Shown here piece by piece: positions 46,620 to 63,500 of a stretch of DNA of 64,000 bases. The notes beneath the pieces are model-generated. The model saw only the letters and a program-made list of their open reading frames with translations. It did no database searches and had not been told where the DNA came from. The stretch is from NCBI GenBank assembly GCA_006384855.1, contig VCJN01002029.1, forward strand, positions 62,001 through 126,000, read 5' to 3'. A program made the translations under genes and the position numbers. The DNA comes from Tetraselmis striata. Taxonomy: Eukaryota; Chlorophyta; Chlorodendrophyceae; Chlorodendrales; Chlorodendraceae. Numbering within the stretch: the first letter of the stretch is position 1; each line of letters starts with the position of its first letter.

Positions 46620-46805
46620 GCATATTCGTCTGTCACATCTTTGGCACATCCATCGCATTTTGTTATCCAGTCAGCAAAATGAATGTAACAAAAATTACAT
46701 TTGTAAAATTGCCAAAGTGTAAAATTAATCGTACATACGCGTAGGCAGCATCATGCCATAATATTCGACAAGAACGGGACGACTATATATACCAGCAGTG
46801 TTGCC
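46620..46805. other. AT-rich junction beyond retroelement 2
   Basis: Short AT-rich stretch between the 5' end of element 2 and the palindromic units. No feature recognised. Confidence 0.4.
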
Positions 46806-46808
46806 CTG

Positions 46809-47166
46809 ACCCCCCCCCCCCCCCCCCCCCCCGGGAGGTATTCAGCTCAGCCTGAACTGAATTCAGGCACTTCAGGCTGAATTCAGCTGAAGTGTCTTCA
46901 GGCTGAACTCAGGCCTGAGTTCAGCCTGAAGACACTTCAGTTCAGGTATTCAGGTATTCAGGCTGAATACTGTGCATGAACCCCCCCCCCCCCCCCCCCC
47001 CGGAGGTATTCAGTTCAGCCTGAACTGAATTCATGCACTTCGGGCTGAATTCAGCTGAAGTCTCTTCAGGCTGAACTCCGGCCTGAATTCAGCCTGAAGA
47101 CACTTCAGTTCAGGTATTCAGGTATTCAGGCTGAATACCGTGCATGAACCCCCCCCCCCCCCCCCA
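46809..47166. repeat. Two tandem palindromic units separated by poly(C)
   Basis: Poly(C) (about 46809-46832), unit 1 (46833-46980), poly(C) (46981-47001), unit 2 (47002-47149), poly(C) (47150-47165). Each unit is about 148 bp and built from overlapping TTCAGCCTGAA/CTTCAGG words. The heart of unit 1, 46887-46940, is a perfect 54-bp palindrome centred on AGGCCT. Unit 2 is a copy with a few substitutions, so its palindrome is imperfect. Single degenerate relatives occur at 48926-49000 and 52803-52860. Confidence 0.9.
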
Positions 47167-47483
47167 TCCCCCCAAAAAGGCTTGTATATGGTGTGGGCAT
47201 ATCAGCGCCTATTCAGTCACTACTACCTAGCGGCAAGCATGACAACACATGGACCTCCGAAGACATGCATATGGAGTGATTCAGGGTTACTATATATATA
47301 TATATAATATTGTGTGTGTATGTATATGTATATGTATGTATGTACGTGTGCTCATGCCGTTCCGCTGAGCAAGAGGTGATCCGCGAGCCGGGGCGCCTTT
47401 GCGCCCCCTCCCGCCCCCCCCCCCCCCACCTTCCCCCAAAGAGACAGTGGCCAATAAATTACTCAGTGCGGGTTGAGAAATTG

Positions 47484-47881
47484 TCATATAACTTTGATGA
47501 AAACCCCCCGACCCTCCCGCCTTTGCAGGTAATACCATTGTCTTGATGTCTTCTTTACGATTTTGTGGGTACAGCAGTGAGTGCACATACTTCCCACAGC
47601 CGATGCCGGCTTCCACGGTGCTGCTCGCCTCACTGCCCGCATTGACCTCCGCAGAGGCGGGATCCAGTAGCGCGGCAGCCCCCTGAACCTCGCTCCGAAT
47701 CTTGATATCCGGCTTGAAAGTGAGCCTGCAACATACATACCTTGCCAAAGGTGTACGAGAGAGCAGCGTCCGCATGTGCACCCAGGTCTACATTCTTGTG
47801 TATGAATAGTTGAGTGGCCATATTCTCCACACCCATCTTATTTTGCAAGCTCTGCGTGACTAGGCCAGCGAGAGATCAGAG
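47484..47881 (-). CDS. Possible gene fragment of unknown function
   Basis: Two exon-like minus-strand stretches. 47861-47744 reads TQSLQNKMGVENMATQLF ... ALSYTFGK and ends at a GT donor. A block below 47724 reads LTFKPDIKIRSEVQGAAALL ... GKYVHSLLYPQNRKED. The first exon ends in phase 0 while the second block needs a different phase, so the join as it stands does not work. I do not recognise a family. It may be a broken gene caught among the repeats. Confidence 0.25.
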
Positions 47882-47970
47882 CACACACGCTCACACTCTA
47901 TCTGACTAGCACGGATCGCAGGCAACATACGTGCCAATTCCGAAACAGCGGGGTACTTATTGGTGGCGTT

Positions 47971-48511
47971 CTAACGCCACCAACCTAGCACGTCACACGG
48001 CTCATCCGGAGTGGGCGCGGTGGTATCCTCGCACAAGGCTATCAGCTCAATGTCTATATAGGAAGCAAATAACTGCGTAGTCTCCTCAGATGTGTCACCG
48101 TCATCATCAGGGGCACCGTCACCACTAGCCTCATCATCACTATCGAGGTCACTCAAGGCAACGCGGCACTTGGTGCGGGCGGCTTCGGCACGCATCTGAG
48201 TGGATGCATTCTTCTCTCGCTCCATGTGCAACTTCAGCTCCAGCGGTGTTGACAACAGTAGTGCCTCCGCCTTGTATCGCCTCATGAGCGCCTTGCTGCT
48301 GCGGCGCCGCGCTCTCTCTTCCTCGTCACCGGCAGCTAGCACAAAAATGTCCCGAAGACAGAAGCGGGGGTCCACCTGAGTTGCTAGTACCTCGTGTTGG
48401 CGGCGGCGGCGGCATGCTCTCTTCGTTGCCGGCGGCATGCAGGTCGACTTCGGTCTCCGCAGCGCCGGCGTAATGTTCGGCGGCCTTCGAGGCAGCCTGC
48501 GCGGCTTCCAT
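47971..48511 (-). CDS. Putative small charged protein, unknown function
   Basis: A minus-strand frame of 155 residues (48438-47971) ends in a strongly acidic segment (SDLDSDDEASGDGAPDDDGD) after an Arg/Lys-rich, helical stretch (ERARRRSSKALMRRYKAEAL). Upstream in another frame, from an ATG at 48511, reads MEAAQAASKAAEHYAGAAET. The two could be joined in phase by a very short intron (about 40 bases, GTGGAC...GCTAG), which is shorter than any other intron here. No domain is recognised. It could be an accessory ORF of a mobile element. Low confidence. Confidence 0.3.
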
Positions 48512-48625
48512 AGTCAGCTTGGGGGGGGCGGGGGGGGGGGGCGTAGGGTGGGGGGTTGAGACTTGGGAGTGGCGGACATTGTAGTGCTGTGATCGTGCGC
48601 CGTTTGGTTGGTGATGCTCTATTCC

Positions 48626-48661
48626 GTATTCCTTGGCGGCGGGCTTGCCGCCAAGGAATAC
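48626..48661. repeat. Perfect 15-bp inverted repeat with 6-base loop
   Basis: Arms 48626-48640 and 48647-48661 (GTATTCCTTGGCGGC and its exact complement), loop GGGCTT. It stands alone in non-coding sequence and would form a very stable hairpin. Confidence 0.9.
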
Positions 48662-49146
48662 AGCAAGTGCAGGATGACGCATTACAGAAACTGAAAACAT
48701 CGTTTAACACTGCGCAATATACTATTGGCGCACCACTATGTACTATATGCCGCATATGTGGGTCTGGTACGGATGCAGCCACGTGCGACACATGGGGCGA
48801 TTATAGTACAATTTCTCTGCGGATTCGGACATACCAGAGCGAATGGATTCTCCCGCTAGACGCTAAACTCAAAACTCGTACGTTTAGAGGGACTTCAGGT
48901 AGGGGGTATTTAGGCCATTTTTGCTAGGTATTCAGCATGAATTGAATTCAGCTGAAGTCGGGACTTCAGCCTGAAGTGGCCTGAACTGAAGCCCCTTCCG
49001 GGCAACCCTGGACTATACCCGTATTGTAGTAGTCGCAGGCGCATTGCCAAAAAAAATGCTTTGCCTTCATTTAAAGTTTTTGGAAGGGGCCACAAAGCCT
49101 AAGAGGCAGACCCGCGAAATTGAATGAAGTGCGGGCAGACTGGGCG

Positions 49147-49739: not shown

Positions 49740-52060
49740 ATTGAATGCTGGGGGCGGCGAAAGCGGTTGTGCAGCGGCGGCTTGATGGCACCGACCAACT
49801 GCGTGCACTGGCCGGGAAAGCGACCGAGGCACAATCGTCATGGTGCAGTGTCGGCACGATGGGGCCTACCGAATGCGTGCCCGGAGCTGAGATACCAACC
49901 GAGGCACGACGTGCAGCGGCGGCATGACGGCGCCGACCAAATGCGTTCCCGGGGGTTGCGAAAGCAACATGGCACAATGTGCAGCGGCGGCCCGTTAGCG
50001 CCGACCAGCTGCGTGTCTGGGCCGCGCAAGCGACCGGGGCACATGATGCAGTGGCGACACGATGGTGCGGACCAATTGCGTGCCCGGTCTGTGAAGCCAA
50101 CCGGGCGGGGCACATGATGCAGTGGCGACCCGCCGGCGTTGACCAACTGCATGCCCGGGCCGAGAAAGCGACCGGGGCACGAGGTGCGGTAACGGCCTGA
50201 TGGCGCCGACCCACTGCGTGCATGGGGCTGCGAAAGCGATTGAGGCACACGGTGCAGAGGCGCCCCCTTGGCACCGACCATCTGCGTGTCCGGACCGCGG
50301 AGACGACCGGGGCACATGGTGCAGCGGCGGCCTGATGGCGCCGAGCAATTGCGTGCGCGGGCCGCGGAAGCGATCGGGGCATTGGGTGCAGTGGCGGCCT
50401 AATGGCGCCAACCGGCTGCGTGCCCGGGGCTGCGAAGGCAACCGAGGCACGACGTGCAGCGGCGGCCCGGCGGCGCCGAACAAGTGCATGCCCGGGCCGC
50501 GGAATCGACCGGGGCATATGAACGATGCAGTGGCGGCATGTTGGCGCCGACCTACTGCGTGCCTGGGGCTGCGAATGCAACCGGGGCACAAGGTGCAGTG
50601 ACGGCCCGTTGGCGCCGACCATCTGCGTGTCCGGGCCGCGGAGACGGCCATGGCACGAGGTGCAGCGGTGGCCTGATGGCGCTGAACATATGCGTGCGCG
50701 GGCCGCGGAGGCGACCGGGGCATAGGGTGCAGTGGCGGCCTAATGACGCTGACCGGCTGCGTGCCCGGGGTTGCGAAAGCAACCGAGGCAAGACGTGCAG
50801 CGGCGGCCCGTTGGCGCCGAACGAACTGGTGTGTGCCCGGGTTGCGGAATCAACCAGGGCACATGACGCAATCGTGACGGCCCGTTGGCGCCGACCAATA
50901 ACTGCGGGCATGGGGACTGCGAAAGCAACATGGCACAATGTGCAGAGGCGGCCCCTTGGCGCCGACCATTTGCATGCGCGGGCATGGAAGCGAGTGGGGC
51001 ACAAGGTGCAGTGACGGGCCGTTGGCGCCGACGACCGGCTGCGTGTCCGGGCCGCGGAGGCGACCGGGGCACATGGCGGCGCGGAGGCGGTCTGATGTCG
51101 CCGACCAACTGCGTGCCTTGGTCGCAGAAGCGACCGGGGCACATGTGCACTGGCGGTCCGACGGCGCCGACCATCTGGGTGTCCGGGCCGCGGAGGCGGC
51201 CATGGAACGAGGTGCAGCGATGGCCTGATGGCGCCGAACATCTGCGTGCGCATGCCGCGTAGGCGACCGGGGCATAGGGTGCAGTGGCTGCCTGATGGCG
51301 ACGACAAATTGCGTGTCCGGGGCTGCGAAAGCAACCGAGGCACGACGTGCAGCGGCGGCCCGACGGCACCGAACGGCTGCGCGCTAGGGCCGCGGAATCG
51401 ACCGGGGCACATGATGTAGTGACGGCCCGTTGGCGCCGACCCACTGCGTGCATGGGGCTGCGAAAGCAGCCGAGGCGCAATGTGCAGAGGCGTCCCGTTT
51501 GCGCCGACCAGCTGCGTGCCTGGACCGCGGAAGCGAGTGGGGCACAAGGTGCAATGTCGGCCCGCGTTGGCGCCCACCGGCGTGTCCGGGCCGCGGAGGC
51601 GACCGGGGCACATGGCGGCGCGGAGGCGGCCTGATGGCGCCGACCAACTGCGTGCCATGGCCGCGGAAGCGACCGGTCACATGGTGCACGGGCAGTCTTT
51701 AGGCGCCGACCAACCGTATTCCCGGGGCTGCGAAAGCAACAGAGGCACAAGGTGCCGCAGCGGCCCATTTGCGCCAAACAACTGCGTGCCCGGGCCGCGG
51801 AATCGATCGGGGCACATGGTACAGTGGCGGCCCATTAGCGTCGACCGGTTGCGTGCCCATACCGCGAAGCGGCTTGAACATACGGTATAACGGCGGTTGG
51901 TTGGTGCCCGCTAGCCGTGCGTATAATGGCGGCCCGATGGCGCCAACCGATTGCGCGGGTGCGCGGAGGCGGCATACGGTGCTGGCCGGTCGGCGCCGAA
52001 CATATGTGTTCACGGGGTTGCGAAGGGCAGCCCGGTTGTGGCGGGGAGTAGCGCGTTGAA
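49740..52060. repeat. 67-68 bp minisatellite, about 34 copies
   Basis: Tandem array. The typical unit reads GTGCAGCGGCGGCCCGTTGG, then CGCCGACCAACTGCGTGCCC, then GGGCCGCGGAAGCGACCGGG, then GCACAT. Three consecutive starts, 49911, 49979 and about 50046, give the period. Units differ by substitutions (CGG/TGG, TTGCGAAAGCAACC variants), so the array is old. Because the period is not a multiple of three and no stops occur for long stretches, every frame shows long artificial ORFs, for example 367 and 368 codons on the minus strand. Confidence 0.9.
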
Positions 52061-54574: not shown

Positions 54575-57500
54575 ATGGAATCGGAGGGCTTTAATTTCCC
54601 ACTAGCAGGGGACGTCCTCATCATCTATACGCAGAGTGGGCAGCCTTACGAGGTAAAGGCGCTTGCCACCCACGTGCACGTTTATGGCGCTACTGCTCGG
54701 TTGTTTGCTCAGCTGCGGTTGCATGACATTGGCATTTATGCTTGCTCGGGTTCAGGTGCGCCATCCCTCGCAGAAGGACGCAGCCGAAGGCGCGGTTCCA
54801 GAGTTGGTTCCTGGTGCTGTTGGCGAAGAGGGCCTAGATACTCACCTGGAGGTTCTGCGCAAGGTGGTGCCCAGCAGGCGACTGATACCTAAAACGCAGT
54901 CCGTAATTTTTTTGCTAGTTTTTTGCCTGTTAAACCTCCCTTTCATTCTCTCTGTGCCTCGTCAGGGACCGTACCTTGGGTTCCGCTCAAGGTCAGCCAA
55001 TGGAAGAGTTCTGCAAGCCCGCCGGCGGGGCCATTGCCGCTTGTGCTTCTTCTCTGTTCGATGGGGCGTCTGGGAACAATGGAAGGTACTGGTACAGATA
55101 TGGCTGACACGCCCTGTTAAAGGTAATGCTATAAGATTTGCTTTGAGCTCATAACATGGATATTTAACAGCTCCCAACCTGTTCCTGATAACCCACAGGT
55201 GGAATTCATTCAGACAAAGGGGATGACTGAGTCGGGGCCAATCTACACAATGCATCTGTCGCCCCGCCAGTGAGTGATGCAGTGCACCCCTATATCGACT
55301 GCCAGATCATTCAACTATCATGCAGGCAAGCCATTTTCTAGGAGCCGCAGGTCAGCTGACAGGGCTATGTTTCCGCCCAGGTTGCCCAACTTCAAGCTTG
55401 TTGTTGAGGCCCGGAAAGTCGGCAGAGTTTTGCGCAGTAACCTACAGCCTCAGCTCACGCCAGGCAAGGGTGAGTTCTATGTCATCCGGCCATCGAGGGT
55501 TGTGCCTTTTGTATTTAGTGAGTGACATTGATGGTCAGGATGGGCCTTACTTCCCGTAGTGTGTGATCTTGGAACGTCTCACACCCGTTGCAGGTAGCAA
55601 GTGTGCTGTGCTGACCGCGAATTCCGTCCTGGATCTTTCTCTTGCCCTCACAACTGGATTCGGGACTCGCCTGCTGAAGACTGAGCTTCACATTGCCTTC
55701 CAATGTTGGCGTTTGTACACCAAGAAGCTGAGGGAGCTTGATGCCGTGCTTCACCAGCGGTGGCAGCAGCGATTTGCTAACATGGCTTTCAGCTCATGGC
55801 AGCAAGCAGTTGTCGATCTCAAGCAATGGAGGCATGTCATGTGAGTTGCTCACCAGCAAGATCACGCCTACCGCCCAGAGGGGGTGCTGCCTGGAGTGGC
55901 TAATGTCCTGCCACGACTTGCTGCGGTTGCAGGTACCTTGCTGGCAAGATCAACGAGCGCTTGCTCATCAAACTGGCCATGGATGCTCTCCACGCCTGGC
56001 TCAAGGCAGTCAAACGAGCCAAGCACAATCGATGGCTCATCCGAAAGGCCTTGGAGCGGCACATGCAGAGCTTGATAGCCAGAGCATTTGCCGACTGGGA
56101 CTGGTGGACCAGGCACTGCCGGATCATGGCAAATTTGCTGGGAATGGCCAAGGACAACGTTGCGCGCGGAAAATGTCGAAGGATCCTGCAGGTGCAATGG
56201 CTGATTTCGCTGGAATGAGCTCTGCCTGCTGACCTCAAGCCGAGTAGCGCTTCTGGTTGTAGCGGCGCTCTTACTTACCCCCATGGTTGTAATCTGCCCT
56301 TGCAGGCTTGGAGGCAGGAGGCCAAGGGCAACCGCACGACGTTCATGTTTGAGTATGCGGCAGAGAGGCTTTGCGTCCGCCTAGGCCACCGGCGGATGCG
56401 GGGCTGCTTTGAGGCGTGGCGCAACGCCGCGGCCCACGCCGTAGCGACCAGGCGGCTCCTTCGGAGGGCTCTTGCCCGTATGGCGCATCGGCGGCTTGCC
56501 ATGGCCATGGATGCTTGGATTGACTACATGCTTCTGCAGAGTCAGAGGCGCGCAAAGGTGTGTGGACACAGCGAGGCTGTGCCAGCTGTGGCTTAGGGCC
56601 TGCCTGCCAGCACAGCAGATTGCCCACGCCTTGCAACACATATCCCTCCTGAGCGCGACTGTTGTTGGAATGTGCTTGCAGGTCAACCGCATGCTGGGCC
56701 ATGCAGCAAACCAAACGCAGGCCCGTGCATGGGGCTCGTGGGTAGACATGACGTGTGAGAGTCGACGCCAGCGGCGCCTGGTAGAGCGCAGTCTGAAGAA
56801 GATGATTCACCGCACTCTTGCTCAGGCCTGGGAGACGTGGTTAAATATGGCTGACAGCTCCAAGCAGAACCGCAGGAGGATCAAGCGCGCACTGCTGCAG
56901 TTTGCTATGGGCCTGAAGGGACGGGCGTGGATGAGCTGGTGGGAGTACATGCAGTGGGCTGTGTTCAAGCGCCAGCAGCTTCGGAAAGCCTGCGCATCCA
57001 TCTCAAATGTGAAGCTCAGGGCAGCGTTCAGTGGCTGGTTGGATGCTGTCTTAGAGCTGCAGAGGCATCGGGGCCTGATTGACAAGAGCACCAGGCGCAT
57101 CCTCAATGGCCGGCTTGCGTCTGCTTGGGCTGCCTGGGTTGACGCTGCGGCAGATGTATCACGCAGGCGTGAAGTCATCCGCAAAGTCCTGAAACGTGCC
57201 ATGAACCTCGCGCTGGCTACATCTTTCGAGACCTGGTTGGACTGGGTGGCCTCCCTTCGCAGAAACAGGCACAAGGTGGGCTACTCTCGCATCTGCCGCA
57301 TTTGCATCTGCCTTCAGTGCGCCGCCGCATGTGCTTGAGTTGTTAATTCCGGTATGTCATGGCGCTCTCTCTGCAGATTGGGTCGGTGCTCAGCCGCCTG
57401 CGGACTCGGGTCCTGGCCTCCGCCTGGGTCTCCTGGGCGGATTTTGCAGCGGACCAGAAACGGCGGCGTGGCGTTGCAACGCGCGCTGTGGCTCGGATGA

Positions 57501-60500
57501 GTCACCTTGCTCTGGCCAGGGGTTGGAACGCCTGGCTGGACTGGATGTACGAGAACCAAAGGCTGAAGGCGCTTCTCATCAAGGTGATTGGACGGCTGTC
57601 CCACAGGTTGCTGGCTACCAGTTTCCTGGGCTGGCTGGGTGTTGTGCATGCGCGCCAGGATGGCCGTAAGGCTCTGCTGAGCGCTTGCAGGGTCATCATG
57701 CACGCCGATCTTGCATCCGCATTTCAGGGCTGGCTGGAGTACCTGTCACAGCAGGCATCCCACCGCCACATCCTCTCTCGAGCCCTTGCCAAGATGTCCA
57801 ACGCCCGGATGGCTGCTGCGTTTGCTTCCTGGTCAGAGTATGTCCTCACCACGCGCCGACAGCGGCACCTTGTGCACATGAGCCTTAGTAAGCTCTCCAA
57901 CAGCTCCATGGCGAAAGCCTTTGCGGCATGGGAAGATTCCTTGGCACACCGCAAGCGCACCCGCGCCTTGCTCAAGCGGGCATTGGCTCGCCTGACCCAG
58001 CGACTTCTGGCTTGCGCCTTTTCCATGTGGGAGTACTCGGCCCTGAAGCAGCGCCACGGCCGCGCCCTGGCGGGCCAAGCTCTGAACAAGCTCAAGAATC
58101 GCCTGCTGTCCACAGCATGGTTCACCTGGACATCACGGCTAGAGGAGAGATCCAGCAAAAAGGCAGCTGTGCGCCGTGCTTTGATGCACCTAACGAATAG
58201 ACACCTCTCCGCTGCCTGGCTCGCGTGGGTGGACTGCCTGGCAGCCAACCGCCGCGAGCGATGGGCCGCATCCAGAGTAGTGCGATTTTGGACAAACCGT
58301 GTTCTGCTGCCGGCTTGGCTGGCATGGGTATCCTTTGTGGCGGATACCGTTCGCGTGCGGAACCTGCTGGCGCGTGCAGTCAATCGAATGGCGAACCGGC
58401 ATATGACGCAAGCGTGGACGGCGTGGCTGGACTTTTTGGATTGCAAGCGCCGCGGAAACCGTCTTGTCAGGTCAGCGCTCGGGCGCATGGCCAACCGGAT
58501 CCTGGCGGTCACGTTTGGCGAATGGCAGGCAGCGGTGGAGCTGGCGACCCGTCAGCGCGTCATCGTCAAGCGCTGCCTTGTGCGAATGAGAATGTGCAAA
58601 GTGGCGGGTGCGTTCGATGCCTGGACCGCCTGGGTGTACGACAACAAGCGCTTGAAGGCCCTGGCGTCCCGGGGCATGGCTCGGCTCATGAACCGCCGTC
58701 TTGCCATCGCATTTTTGACCTGGCTTGACTCGCTTTCAGAGGGCCGGCGTCGCAAGCAGCTGATGTCCAAGGTCGCCGCGCGGCTTGCGAACCTCAAGAT
58801 GGCCACTGCGTTTGGCACCTGGGTTGATGCCGTGGACCTGTGCCGTCACCACCGCGGCCTACTCCTCAAGGCCGCCAAGCGCATGATGCAGAGGCGCCTT
58901 GGCATGGCTTGGGACGCATGGGCAGACTACATCCTCACCAGGCGCCACCTGCAGCGCCTGCTCCGCAAGGGGCTGGCTGGAATGACGCAGCGAACCTTGA
59001 AGGCGGCTTGGGTGGCATGGGGGGAGAGCGTGCACGCCCTGCGTCGCCTCCGCACCCTCGGTATGCGCGGCATGATGCGCACCAATGACCGCCTCCTCAA
59101 GTCATGCTTTTACAGGTATGAGGCTCGGTATGGCCACAGGTTGATACCACAAGTCGCCCTTCCCTGGGGTGCTTTGGGATCATACATTGGCAAACCTGTC
59201 CATCTTACGTAAGGAGGTCTATCTTGTCTAGTTTGATGCCCTCAAGACGTTTTGGTATTCAAAGGGCCTTATGTAGTGTGGGGTGTTAGGATTTGATACA
59301 TTTTTATATGAGTAGCTTTACGCCTAGTTATACATTAAATATGTCAATATGTACACAATCTCTATTGCGCAACATCCAGTATTTTTATACATCTATATAA
59401 TTGATATGTGTTAGAACCATTCTATATCTGATTTATTGTCTTCGAATATATATGATATATGATATTCTAAGATCTTTATATATACTTTTAAATGATTTGT
59501 AAGTATGTATTAGAAATATTACATATCTAATTCATTGTATTGGGAATATCTATCTTATTATAATTTATTTGATATATCATATATATAGCGCAAGATTCTG
59601 AGTTCGTGTTCCATTAGCATTCCGACTGCGGTCATAGGCGGGGAAAACATACGTGTACTGGTACCTACTGTCATGTGCACATTTTAAAATACACACACCT
59701 ACTGCCATCTGCCCCTTTTGCTGCCAGTATTGAGATGCCTGCCCAGCATGGCAGCCCCCAGGGGATGTGCGCCTGAATCGGGCAACACTGCGGCTGTTCC
59801 CCTCCCAGGTGGCTCACAGTCATCGAGTTTACCGATACGCGAGAAGTACGCCTGCAACGAGCGGTGGCGTTTCTGTCGAGGAACCAGTTCTGGCGGTGCT
59901 TCCGCGCCTGGCATCAGCTGCTGGCGCAGGCCAGCGACGCCGACGACGCGTTGGTTTGGGCCTTCCAGCGCCTGCGCACGTCGGCGGCGCTGTCTGCCGC
60001 CTTGGCGACCTGGGCGGGCATCGTTGCCGCGCTGCGGCTGGCGCGCGTGCGGGTGGCGCAGTGCGTCGGCCGGATGGCGCGTCGCCACCTGTCGCGCGCG
60101 TGGAGCGCGTGGGCCGACATGCATGCCGCCGCGGCCGCCCGCCGCGAGCTGCTCCTCTCTCGCCAGGTCCAGTGCCTGATGCGCCTTGCAAAGCGCGTCC
60201 TGGCCAAGGCCTTCCGCGGGTGGCTGGAGACGGTCCTGGAGCTGGCGCACGCGCGTGCGATCGCCGGCCGCGCTCTGGCGCGGATGCGCCTGGCGCTCCT
60301 GGCAGCCGGCTTCCACGGCTGGCTCAGCGCCACGGCCGCGCTGGCGGCGTCCCGCAAGCGCGCGCGCCGGCTGCTGTTCCGCATGCAGAACCGCCTGCTG
60401 GCGGCCAGCCTGGCAGGCTGGGCCGCCGCCACGGCGCACCGCCTCGAGGTGCGGGTTCGCTTGACTCGGGCACTGAAGCGGCTCAGCCACGGGATGCTCT

Positions 60501-63500
60501 GGACGGCGTGGAACGCGTGGAGCCAGATGGTGGCCGACCAGCGCGCGCGCCGGGCCTTATTAGCACGCGCGCTGGCCAAGATGCGGTACCGCCAGGTGGC
60601 CGCGGCGTTCGCCACCTGGGAGGGCAGCTGGCTGGCGGCTCGCGCAGAGGCCGCCCGGGAGGCGCGTGTGCGGCGCCTGGCACAGCGCCTCACGCGCCAG
60701 CTGCTCTCGGCGGCGTTCAACAGCTGGGTGGACAACAGCGCGACGCTGCGCGGCCAGCAGACCCTCGCGCGCCGCGCGCTGGCGCACCTGGCGCACCGCC
60801 GCACCGCATCGGCCTGGAACGCCTGGGCGTGGTACTCGGCCGAGCGGCGCCGCTTGCGGCTGCTGCTCGGGCGCGCGGTCCGGCACATGGCTCGGCGTAC
60901 CCTGTCCGCTGCCTGGAACGGCTGGCTGGGCTTTGTGGCCGCTCGCGTTGCCAAGAAGGCGCTCCTCCACCGTGCGCTGCGCACCATGCGGGCTCTCCAA
61001 CTCCAGGCGGCATGGGCCGGCTGGCGCGACTCGGCCGCGCGCGGCAAGCAGCGGGAGCTCCTGGTGGCGCGCGCGCTGCGCAAAATGCGCAACACGGCGC
61101 TGTGGACTGCCTGGAGCGGCTGGCTGGCCGCGGTCGAGCGCGCCGCCGCCGCGCGTGCGCAGGCAACCGGCGTCCTCAAGCGCCTGTCGGTGCGCCACCT
61201 GTCGTCCGGCTGGAACGGCTGGGTGGCGGTGGTGTCACACCGGAAGGAGCGCCGTGTGAAGGTCAACCGCGCGCGGGGCAAGATGCTGCACCGCGCGATA
61301 GCCGCCGCCTTTGCGTCCTGGGCCTTAATGTGGTCCGACGAGCGCGCTGCCCGGCACAAGGCGCGCAGCTGCGTGCAGCGGCTGCTGCAGCGGCTTCTGG
61401 CGCAGGGCTTCACCACGTGGAAGAGCGTGGTGGTCACCCTGGCGGAGCGCCGCGAGGCCGCCAACAAGGCGCTCGGCCGCATCATCCACGGCCTTCTGGG
61501 CACCGCCTGGAATAGCTGGGTTCTGTGGACCGCAGGTGCACAGCACCAGCGCAAGCTGCTGAGCGCCGCCATCCGCCGCGGGATGCACGCCGCGCTGCAC
61601 GCCGCCTTTGCGGGCTGGCTCGATGCTGCCGCGACGAGGACCTCCCGGCGCGCCCTGGTCGCCAAGGCGCTCGCCCGCATGCGGCAGCGGCTGCTCTTCC
61701 GCGCCTATGCCGCCTGGGCCGATCAATGCGACGCCATCCGCGCGCAGCGGCGCGCCGCAGAGGCCACGCTCTACCGGCTGCGCAACCGCCAGGCGGCGCA
61801 GGCCTTCACCACCTGGCGCCAGGAGGCCGCCGCTGGCCGGGCGCAGCGCACACTTGTGTCCAAGGCCCTGTCCCGCATGGCCAACCGCCGCCTCTTCCTG
61901 GCCTTCTCCGCCTGGCAGTCCACATGGGACCTGATGCGCCACCGCCGCCGCCAGGCGCGCGGCATCGTGGACCGCATGCTCCACCGGCTGCTGGCCGCAG
62001 CCTTCCAGACCTGGGCCTTGCGCATGGGCGCCCTCAAGGACAGCCGCCGCCTGGCCGAGTCCGCGCTCCGCCGCATGGGGAACCAGCTGCTTGCCGCCTG
62101 CTTCAGCACCTGGGCGGAACACGGCCACAAGCTGACTGCCGCCCGCGGCCGCGCCGCTGCCATCGTGGCGCGCCTGCAGCAGCGCGGCTTGGCAACGGCG
62201 TTTAGCGGCTGGGCCGCCGCCGTGGCGAGGCGCGTGCGGAACCGCACCCTGGTTGCCCGCGCGGTTCGCCCGCCTCTCGCACGCCCTGCTCGCCGCCGCG
62301 CTCGCCGGCTGGGCGCAGCACGTCGCAGCGCTGGCCTCCGGCCGCGCCAAGGCGACCGCTGCCCTCCGGCGCGCCACCAACGCCGCGACCTGGGCGGCGC
62401 TCAACGGCTGGCGCGCCGCCGTGCAGCGCGTGGGACGCAACCGCGGCATCATGGCCCGCGCCGTCGCGCGCCTCACGCTGCGCCGCCTCGCCAGCGCGCT
62501 TAGCGGGTGGCGCGCCGCCGTGGCGCACCGTGCGGCCGGCCGCGCCAAGGTGGCCCGGATGCTGGCCAAGATGGCGCACTCCGCGCTGTGGGCCGCGTTT
62601 GCCACATGGGTAAGCGCGCTGGTGGATGCGCGCGACGCGCGGCGCGGCGCGCTGCGCGCTGCCGGCCACTGGCTGCACGCCTGCCTGGGCGCTGCGTTTG
62701 CCGGGTGGGCCGCGCACGCCGCGACGCGCCGGCGGCAGCGCGCCCTGGTGCACCGCAGCCTGGGCCGCCTGCGCGTGGGCCAGCTGGCCTCCGCCTTTGC
62801 CGCCTGGGCGGACGCCAGCCTGCGCGCCAAGGCGCTGGTGCGGACAGCCGTCCGGGCCTGGCAGGCAGCTTCCGCCACGCAGGTGCGTCGCCGCGAGCAG
62901 CTCATCCGCTTCTTCACGCGGAAGGCGCTTGGCCTGCTGCGCCTTGCGTACTCCGAGTGGCGCGGCCTGGTGGCCCGCAAGCGCATGCTGTCGCTCCTGT
63001 CGGGGCAGATGGACGCTGCGCGCCGGCGCCGCCAGCTGGGGCCGCCTGCTGGCCGCATGGCATCGCCTGGCCGGGCAGCTCGCCCTGCTGCGCAGCAGCC
63101 TGGACGCCTCGAGCGCCGCGCAGGGGGCGCTCCTCCTGCGGCGGGCCTTCCTCACGTGGTGGCGCCACGTCCGTAAGCTGGCGGCGGCTCGGGCCACGGC
63201 GGAGAGCCGCTGGCTTGCTGCGCGCCGCGGCATGCTGGGCCCGCTGATGGCCGCCTGGCGTGGCGTGGCGGCCGACGCCAAGGCGGCCGACTCGCGCCTC
63301 CGCCGTGCCCTCGTCAAGCTCGGCCTCCGCACCGCCGGCCAGGTCTTTGCCGCCTGGCGCGCCGCCGCTGCCGTAATGAAGGCCGCGCGCGCCGAGGCGG
63401 AGTCCATCCGGCGGTCCACGATGCGCCCCCTGCTGTCGCGCAGCTTCTACGGCTGGCTGTACCTCCTCACCGGCATGGTGGCACGCAAGGCGGTCGTGCC

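Follow-up and report, generated by a model that had tools for sequence, protein, structure and literature searches.

The window, by which we mean the whole 64,000-nt stretch that was analysed, sits in contig C1641, one of the 2903 contigs that make up a 224-Mb assembly. At 46833-47148 it carries a tandem pair of units, arranged head to tail with a 168-bp period and 95% identity. An initial annotation of this DNA had described two 148-bp units bracketed by poly(C), and these are indeed seen, at 148 and 147 bp, between tracts of 23, 21 and 17 C. The flawless 54-bp palindrome that it placed at 46887-46940 is exact and perfect over all 54 bp. The span that it gave for the feature, 46809-47166, does hold the feature but covers only about 16% of it, the real feature reaching 49010. 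We are confident that the palindrome region is the left subterminal part of a non-autonomous, internally deleted DNA transposon of the hAT superfamily, at 46793-49010. The element is about 2.2 kb long and, with its flanks, is made up as follows.

46781-46792, no strand: left target-site duplication, GACTATATATAC, read after the right copy as the 8-bp GACTATAC lengthened by 4 through an assumed TA slippage
46793-46809, plus strand: left terminal inverted repeat (TIR), an extra CAG and then CAGTGTTGCCCTGA at 46796-46809; the family form is CAGGGTTGCCCTGAA
46810-46832, plus strand: poly(C) tract C23, directly inside the left TIR
46833-46980, plus strand: subterminal unit 1, 148 bp, an array of TTCAG/CTGAA words
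46887-46940, no strand: perfect 54-bp palindrome inside unit 1
46981-47001, plus strand: poly(C) tract C21, separating unit 1 from unit 2
47002-47148, plus strand: subterminal unit 2, 147 bp, tandem duplicate of unit 1 (95% identity) with an imperfect palindrome
47149-47165, plus strand: poly(C) tract C17, after unit 2
47572-48403, minus strand: remnant of a hAT transposase gene, C-terminal part, frameshifted and with stops (tblastn with the L095 ORF)
48398-48403, no strand: internal-deletion junction, with a 6-bp overlap between the matches to either side of full-length copies
48398-48700, minus strand: remnant resembling the N-terminal reading frame of a full-length copy (tblastn E 2e-15)
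48892-48996, plus strand: right subterminal array of TTCAG/CTGAA words
48997-49010, plus strand: right TIR, TCCGGGCAACCCTG
49011-49018, no strand: right target-site duplication, GACTATAC

Other repeats lie elsewhere in the window. A 2-kb array of diverged repeats of about 67 bp occupies 49769-51858, and 57359-63176 holds long frames with repeated AW..W-type motifs, which we take to recall Sfi1-like repeats. A repeat with a 126-bp period at 1-549 presumably recalls, on its minus strand, the tetratricopeptide repeats of the kinesin light chain type.

The window copy is assigned to hAT on terminal repeats, target repeats, the dimerisation domain and an empty site, the last three of which were shown in relatives. 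Its C-terminal remnant aligns with the L095 ORF of contig C2490 at 64% identity (tblastn, E 2e-100) over element positions 780-1682, the alignment being poor beyond about 1611. The protein encoded by longer relatives, of about 4.3 kb, contains the hAT dimerisation domain and is similar to Hermes. Dimer_Tnp_hAT (PF05699) is found in the L095 ORF (E 2.8e-16) and in the L082 ORF of C2444 (E 1.7e-16), and the L095 ORF matches Hermes PDB chains with E values of 5.6e-10 to 7.9e-10. When PF05699 was searched for across the genome, with the best 150 of 327 candidates scored, matches lay inside family copies with both ends known on C2791, C2490, C221, C2531 and C1502. Pfam had no match for any of the three remnant frames tested from the window copy, and nothing in that copy matched the middle frame of C2791. 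In Pfam that middle frame returned only DUF659, at E 0.028 and below the cut-off, with no catalytic-core match above the cut-off; we assume from its motifs that it resembles the hAT core (the RNase H-like catalytic core). The N-terminal frame of C2791, which may be interrupted by introns, had no Pfam match to a BED zinc finger.

The units region has at least 78 matching pieces in a genome search in which the best 40 of 164 candidates were scored. Right ends number 85 genome-wide at up to 3 mismatches (reversed-pattern control, 0), and left ends with the C-tract following number 50 at up to 1 mismatch (control, 0). These counts bear out the many-copy repeat family first proposed, and the single genome-wide copy that had been named as contrary evidence is excluded by the genome searches. 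The longest copies by end coordinates, at about 4.3-4.6 kb, are on C2791, C2490, C2432, C221, C1502 and C2444. Both ends are available for 14 distinct elements, the window copy included, and all 14 have short inverted repeats like CAGGGTTGCCCTGAA at both ends. Compared with C2791, one edge of the internal gap (L053 position 2277) is common to 11 of the 13 other paired elements; C2531 has a different gap edge, C1523 matches C2791 only at the ends, and the junction in the window copy is one of its own. From these alignments it looks as though several derivatives were deleted independently, one of them being common. No description of this family turned up in the literature searched, and repeat-family libraries may catalogue it. 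It is a hAT family, a kind already known, with dense palindromic left subterminal repeats.

Two groups of copies share their flanks. At C1713:168937-185812, five copies of the family element lie at a spacing of about 3.67 kb with an identical left flank, and a right tip was located for one of the five; the common left flank indicates that a larger segment was tandemly duplicated. On C2428 and C1180, a family copy has the same flank and target site, with units of 146 versus 170 bp, and the two may be one insertion on two haplotypes.

A check of the flanks, as the initial annotation had advised, revealed 8-bp target-site duplications at the element ends. The 29 target-site rows represent the 14 distinct elements, because pairs were entered once per strand and C2450 again with a second partner. 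The repeats agree at 8/8 positions in 8 of these elements and at 7/8 in 4, and the family duplications are mostly GTnnnnAC. Among 61 tip flanks drawn from both ends, T stands at position 2 in 56 and A at position 7 in 56, as in the nTnnnnAn target preference given for Hermes (PMC10368747). For the window copy, GACTATATATAC and GACTATAC agree exactly only after two assumed slippages, one of 3 bp (CAG) and one of 4 bp of TA (TATA), and the C2450 repeat agrees at 7/8 after a 3-bp CAG shift. An extra CAG between the TIR tip and the target repeat is present in two of the 14 paired elements, at 46793-46795 of the window and at C2450:79246-79248.

An empty site is seen for one element, that of C148. 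Its joined flanks match C1145:867-1158 at 290 of 292 bases, with a single target repeat and no footprint. At least one family insertion is therefore missing at a second place in the same assembly, which suggests recent movement. A flank search of the assembly found no empty site for the window insertion, whose right flank is repetitive and whose left flank is unique among the matches listed.

Seen in the window alone, the unit is cleanly bounded by C-tracts and duplicated head to tail, much as a stand-alone satellite or MITE-like repeat ending at the poly(C) tracts would be. That reading is almost certainly wrong, refuted as it is by the shared body, the terminal repeats and the target repeats. 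The relatives compared run past the right tract into a common element body, except for C1523, which has the unit and the ends in common with the family but differs just after the right C-tract. They also extend left to the TIR (C444 with three extra bases), and tandem units occur at one locus only. The family ends are CAGGGTTGCC/GGCAACCCTG with 8-bp repeats, and the conserved element goes on beyond both tracts. Poly(C) is thus not the repeat boundary it had been thought to be, and such runs are common: the window has 29 C or G runs of at least 15, of which three are in the units region. That the structure does not resemble a LINE was a point on which we agree. An introner, which had been a guess, was dropped once the target repeats and the hAT domain turned up.

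Within the hAT family, the tandem arrangement belongs to the window copy and cannot be counted as the structure of the repeat, as had been supposed. Two units are present in one of 39 aligned elements, and the pattern of unit end, C-tract and unit start occurs at one genome site, this locus (control, 0); zero mismatches were permitted outside N positions, so that diverged tandem copies would be missed. The second unit could in principle be an assembly artefact of long C-runs, which are difficult to sequence and assemble, and its being the sole tandem among the aligned elements might be taken that way. This is very unlikely, however, because units 1 and 2 differ at about 5% of positions, and a read placed twice would not give such a difference. 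We favor a real duplication within the hAT element. The unit of the relatives stands between TGAAC(n) or TGAC(n) tracts, so that slippage or unequal exchange between the flanking C-tracts would give a duplication of this sort and may have done so here. The C-tracts themselves are probably expanded homopolymers. On the right the window copy has 17 C, where 28 of the 38 other elements have 6 C exactly, and the left tract is 8-10 C in 11 of the 17 non-window rows that diverge by no more than 2.1% from their nearest relative. The relation of poly(C) length to divergence is weak (Spearman 0.32, p 0.05, n 38).

The 54-bp palindrome is far beyond chance, since the next-longest perfect palindrome in the window is 20 bp (the sole other of at least 20 bp) and the maxima in 20 simulated first-order Markov windows were 14-22 bp. 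Unit 2 carries the equivalent palindrome at 89%. Of the 40 units aligned across the family, 9 have perfect palindromes of 52-64 bp; the whole set spans 10-64 bp, and the longest, of 64 bp, are those of C2408 and C1180. The 40 units represent 39 elements, four of the five tandem C1713 copies having been left out beforehand. Relatives vary around a GGCC centre in 12-bp steps, and common unit lengths are 146, 158 and 170 bp. A long palindrome would follow from an arrangement of the words in inverted pairs about GGCC.

Over most long pieces the window copy has 82-89% identity with its relatives, and one 241-base piece of C2745 reaches 94%. Its nearest relative differs by 5.6% over a body stretch of about 230 bp, which places it 31st of 38 rows by divergence. 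Taken with the broken frame and the eroded target repeat, this rank suggests that the window copy is among the older ones. Its palindrome, judged from the same alignments, appears to be inherited, a trait of the family. The initial annotation had taken the palindrome to be young and to point to recent amplification or selection; the presence of perfect palindromes of 52-64 bp in 9 of 40 units stands against this, as do the broken frame, the eroded target repeat and the 5.6% divergence.

A related idea is that the palindrome arose at this locus recently, or that selection, or the correction of either arm by its partner, has kept it perfect here. Some details of the arms fit such upkeep. Over the 26 arm pairs compared, unit 1 has no mismatch and unit 2 has three; at arm position 21 unit 1 has a change in both arms and unit 2 in its left arm alone; and at arm position 6 the two arms agree in three ways, as G in 10 of 36 units, as T in 3 and as A in 1. 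Correction of imperfect palindromes by template switching is a known process (PMC3820800). Nevertheless, we consider upkeep or a young origin unlikely. Perfect palindromes of 52-64 bp are present in 8 units of other elements. Both-arm changes occur at only 2 of 26 arm positions, nearly all other differences being one-armed, and position 6 is mismatched in 22 of the 36 units. Units that have diverged further from their nearest relative also have more arm mismatches (Spearman 0.47, p 0.004, n 35; this set includes two mis-anchored rows, and the two window units are each other's nearest relative). The arm comparison covers 36 of the 40 units, C1432, C238, C1713 and C141 having been dropped because an arm could not be anchored, and the mismatch counts of C118 and C2432 are inflated because these were anchored at the wrong word. 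Occasional correction of an arm to match its partner would fit the arm data, but these are too scant to build on.

In all 14 paired elements TTCAG/CTGAA occurs 15-26 times in the first 200 bp and 8-13 times in the last 200 bp; inside the elements its frequency is 0-0.33 per 100 bp (14/14), and in the rest of the window 0.16 per 100 bp. We infer, by analogy with Ac and Hermes, that the arrays are putative docking sites for the family transposase, the subterminal array acting as a docking platform. Spacer-free perfect inverted repeats can extrude, and the array might act as a hairpin or cruciform and not through protein binding. We regard this as quite unlikely, since the two ends have the density of words in common and not the symmetry: at the right all 14 elements carry words without a perfect palindrome longer than 10 bp, and at the left the longest palindrome varies from 10 to 64 bp while the 15-26 words persist.

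A sister hAT-like family is present in the same genome, its TIR CAGGGTTGTGCCGAACTC having 274 matches at up to 2 mismatches (control, 6). The one sister element examined is like the family in its related TIR, its 8-bp target repeat and its word arrays at both ends, but differs in that TTCGG/CCGAA is the commoner word, mixed with TTCAG/CTGAA. This element, 0.9 kb long (L056, C2450:78338-79237), adjoins a family copy, with CTG and the 8-bp target repeat between them. It is tempting to speculate that transposase docking at such ends is multivalent and very dense (15-26 5-bp words over the first 200 bp, with palindromes reaching 64 bp), and that from one sister family to the other the array and the inner TIR end change their word together (CTGAA versus mostly CCGAA), as if binding word and transposase evolve in step. 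We offer this tentatively, as a possibility with the odds against it; the sister side comes from that one element, whose array is mixed.

What began as a puzzling palindrome is now a hAT family with unusually dense palindromic left ends and with full-length and deleted relatives. Sister families with differing end words would allow tests of how recognition of hAT ends changes.

Hermes of the house fly offers one comparison. In the part of its description available (PMC10368747), it has subterminal repeats, among them a quasi-palindromic pair that BED domains bind cooperatively; the repeated motif is AAGT, which occurs five times within the terminal 55 bp at either end. The family resembles Hermes, as described there, in its 8-bp nTnnnnAn target sites, imperfect short TIRs and subterminal repeats. 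The C-terminal region of its transposase can also be aligned with that of Hermes, over residues 185-248 of the L095 ORF. Unlike Hermes with its AAGT, as far as that portion of the account goes, the family has the word TTCAG/CTGAA at 15-26 per first 200 bp, its palindromes reach 64 bp, and a C-tract lies beside the left TIR.

Maize Ac/Ds offers another. The available portion of its description (PMC3260210) gives AAACGG as the word and 11 bp as the TIR, both unlike those of the family, and in that portion a long perfect palindrome is not mentioned. AAACGG is a short subterminal repeat that binds the Ac transposase and is present in many copies in the terminal 200 bp; the full length is 4.6 kb, the target repeat is 8 bp and many copies are internally deleted (PMC3260210, same portion). 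On that account, the family is like Ac/Ds in its similar full length (about 4.3 kb), its 8-bp target repeat, its internally deleted copies and its many short repeats in the terminal 200 bp, which, by analogy, may likewise be bound by the transposase.
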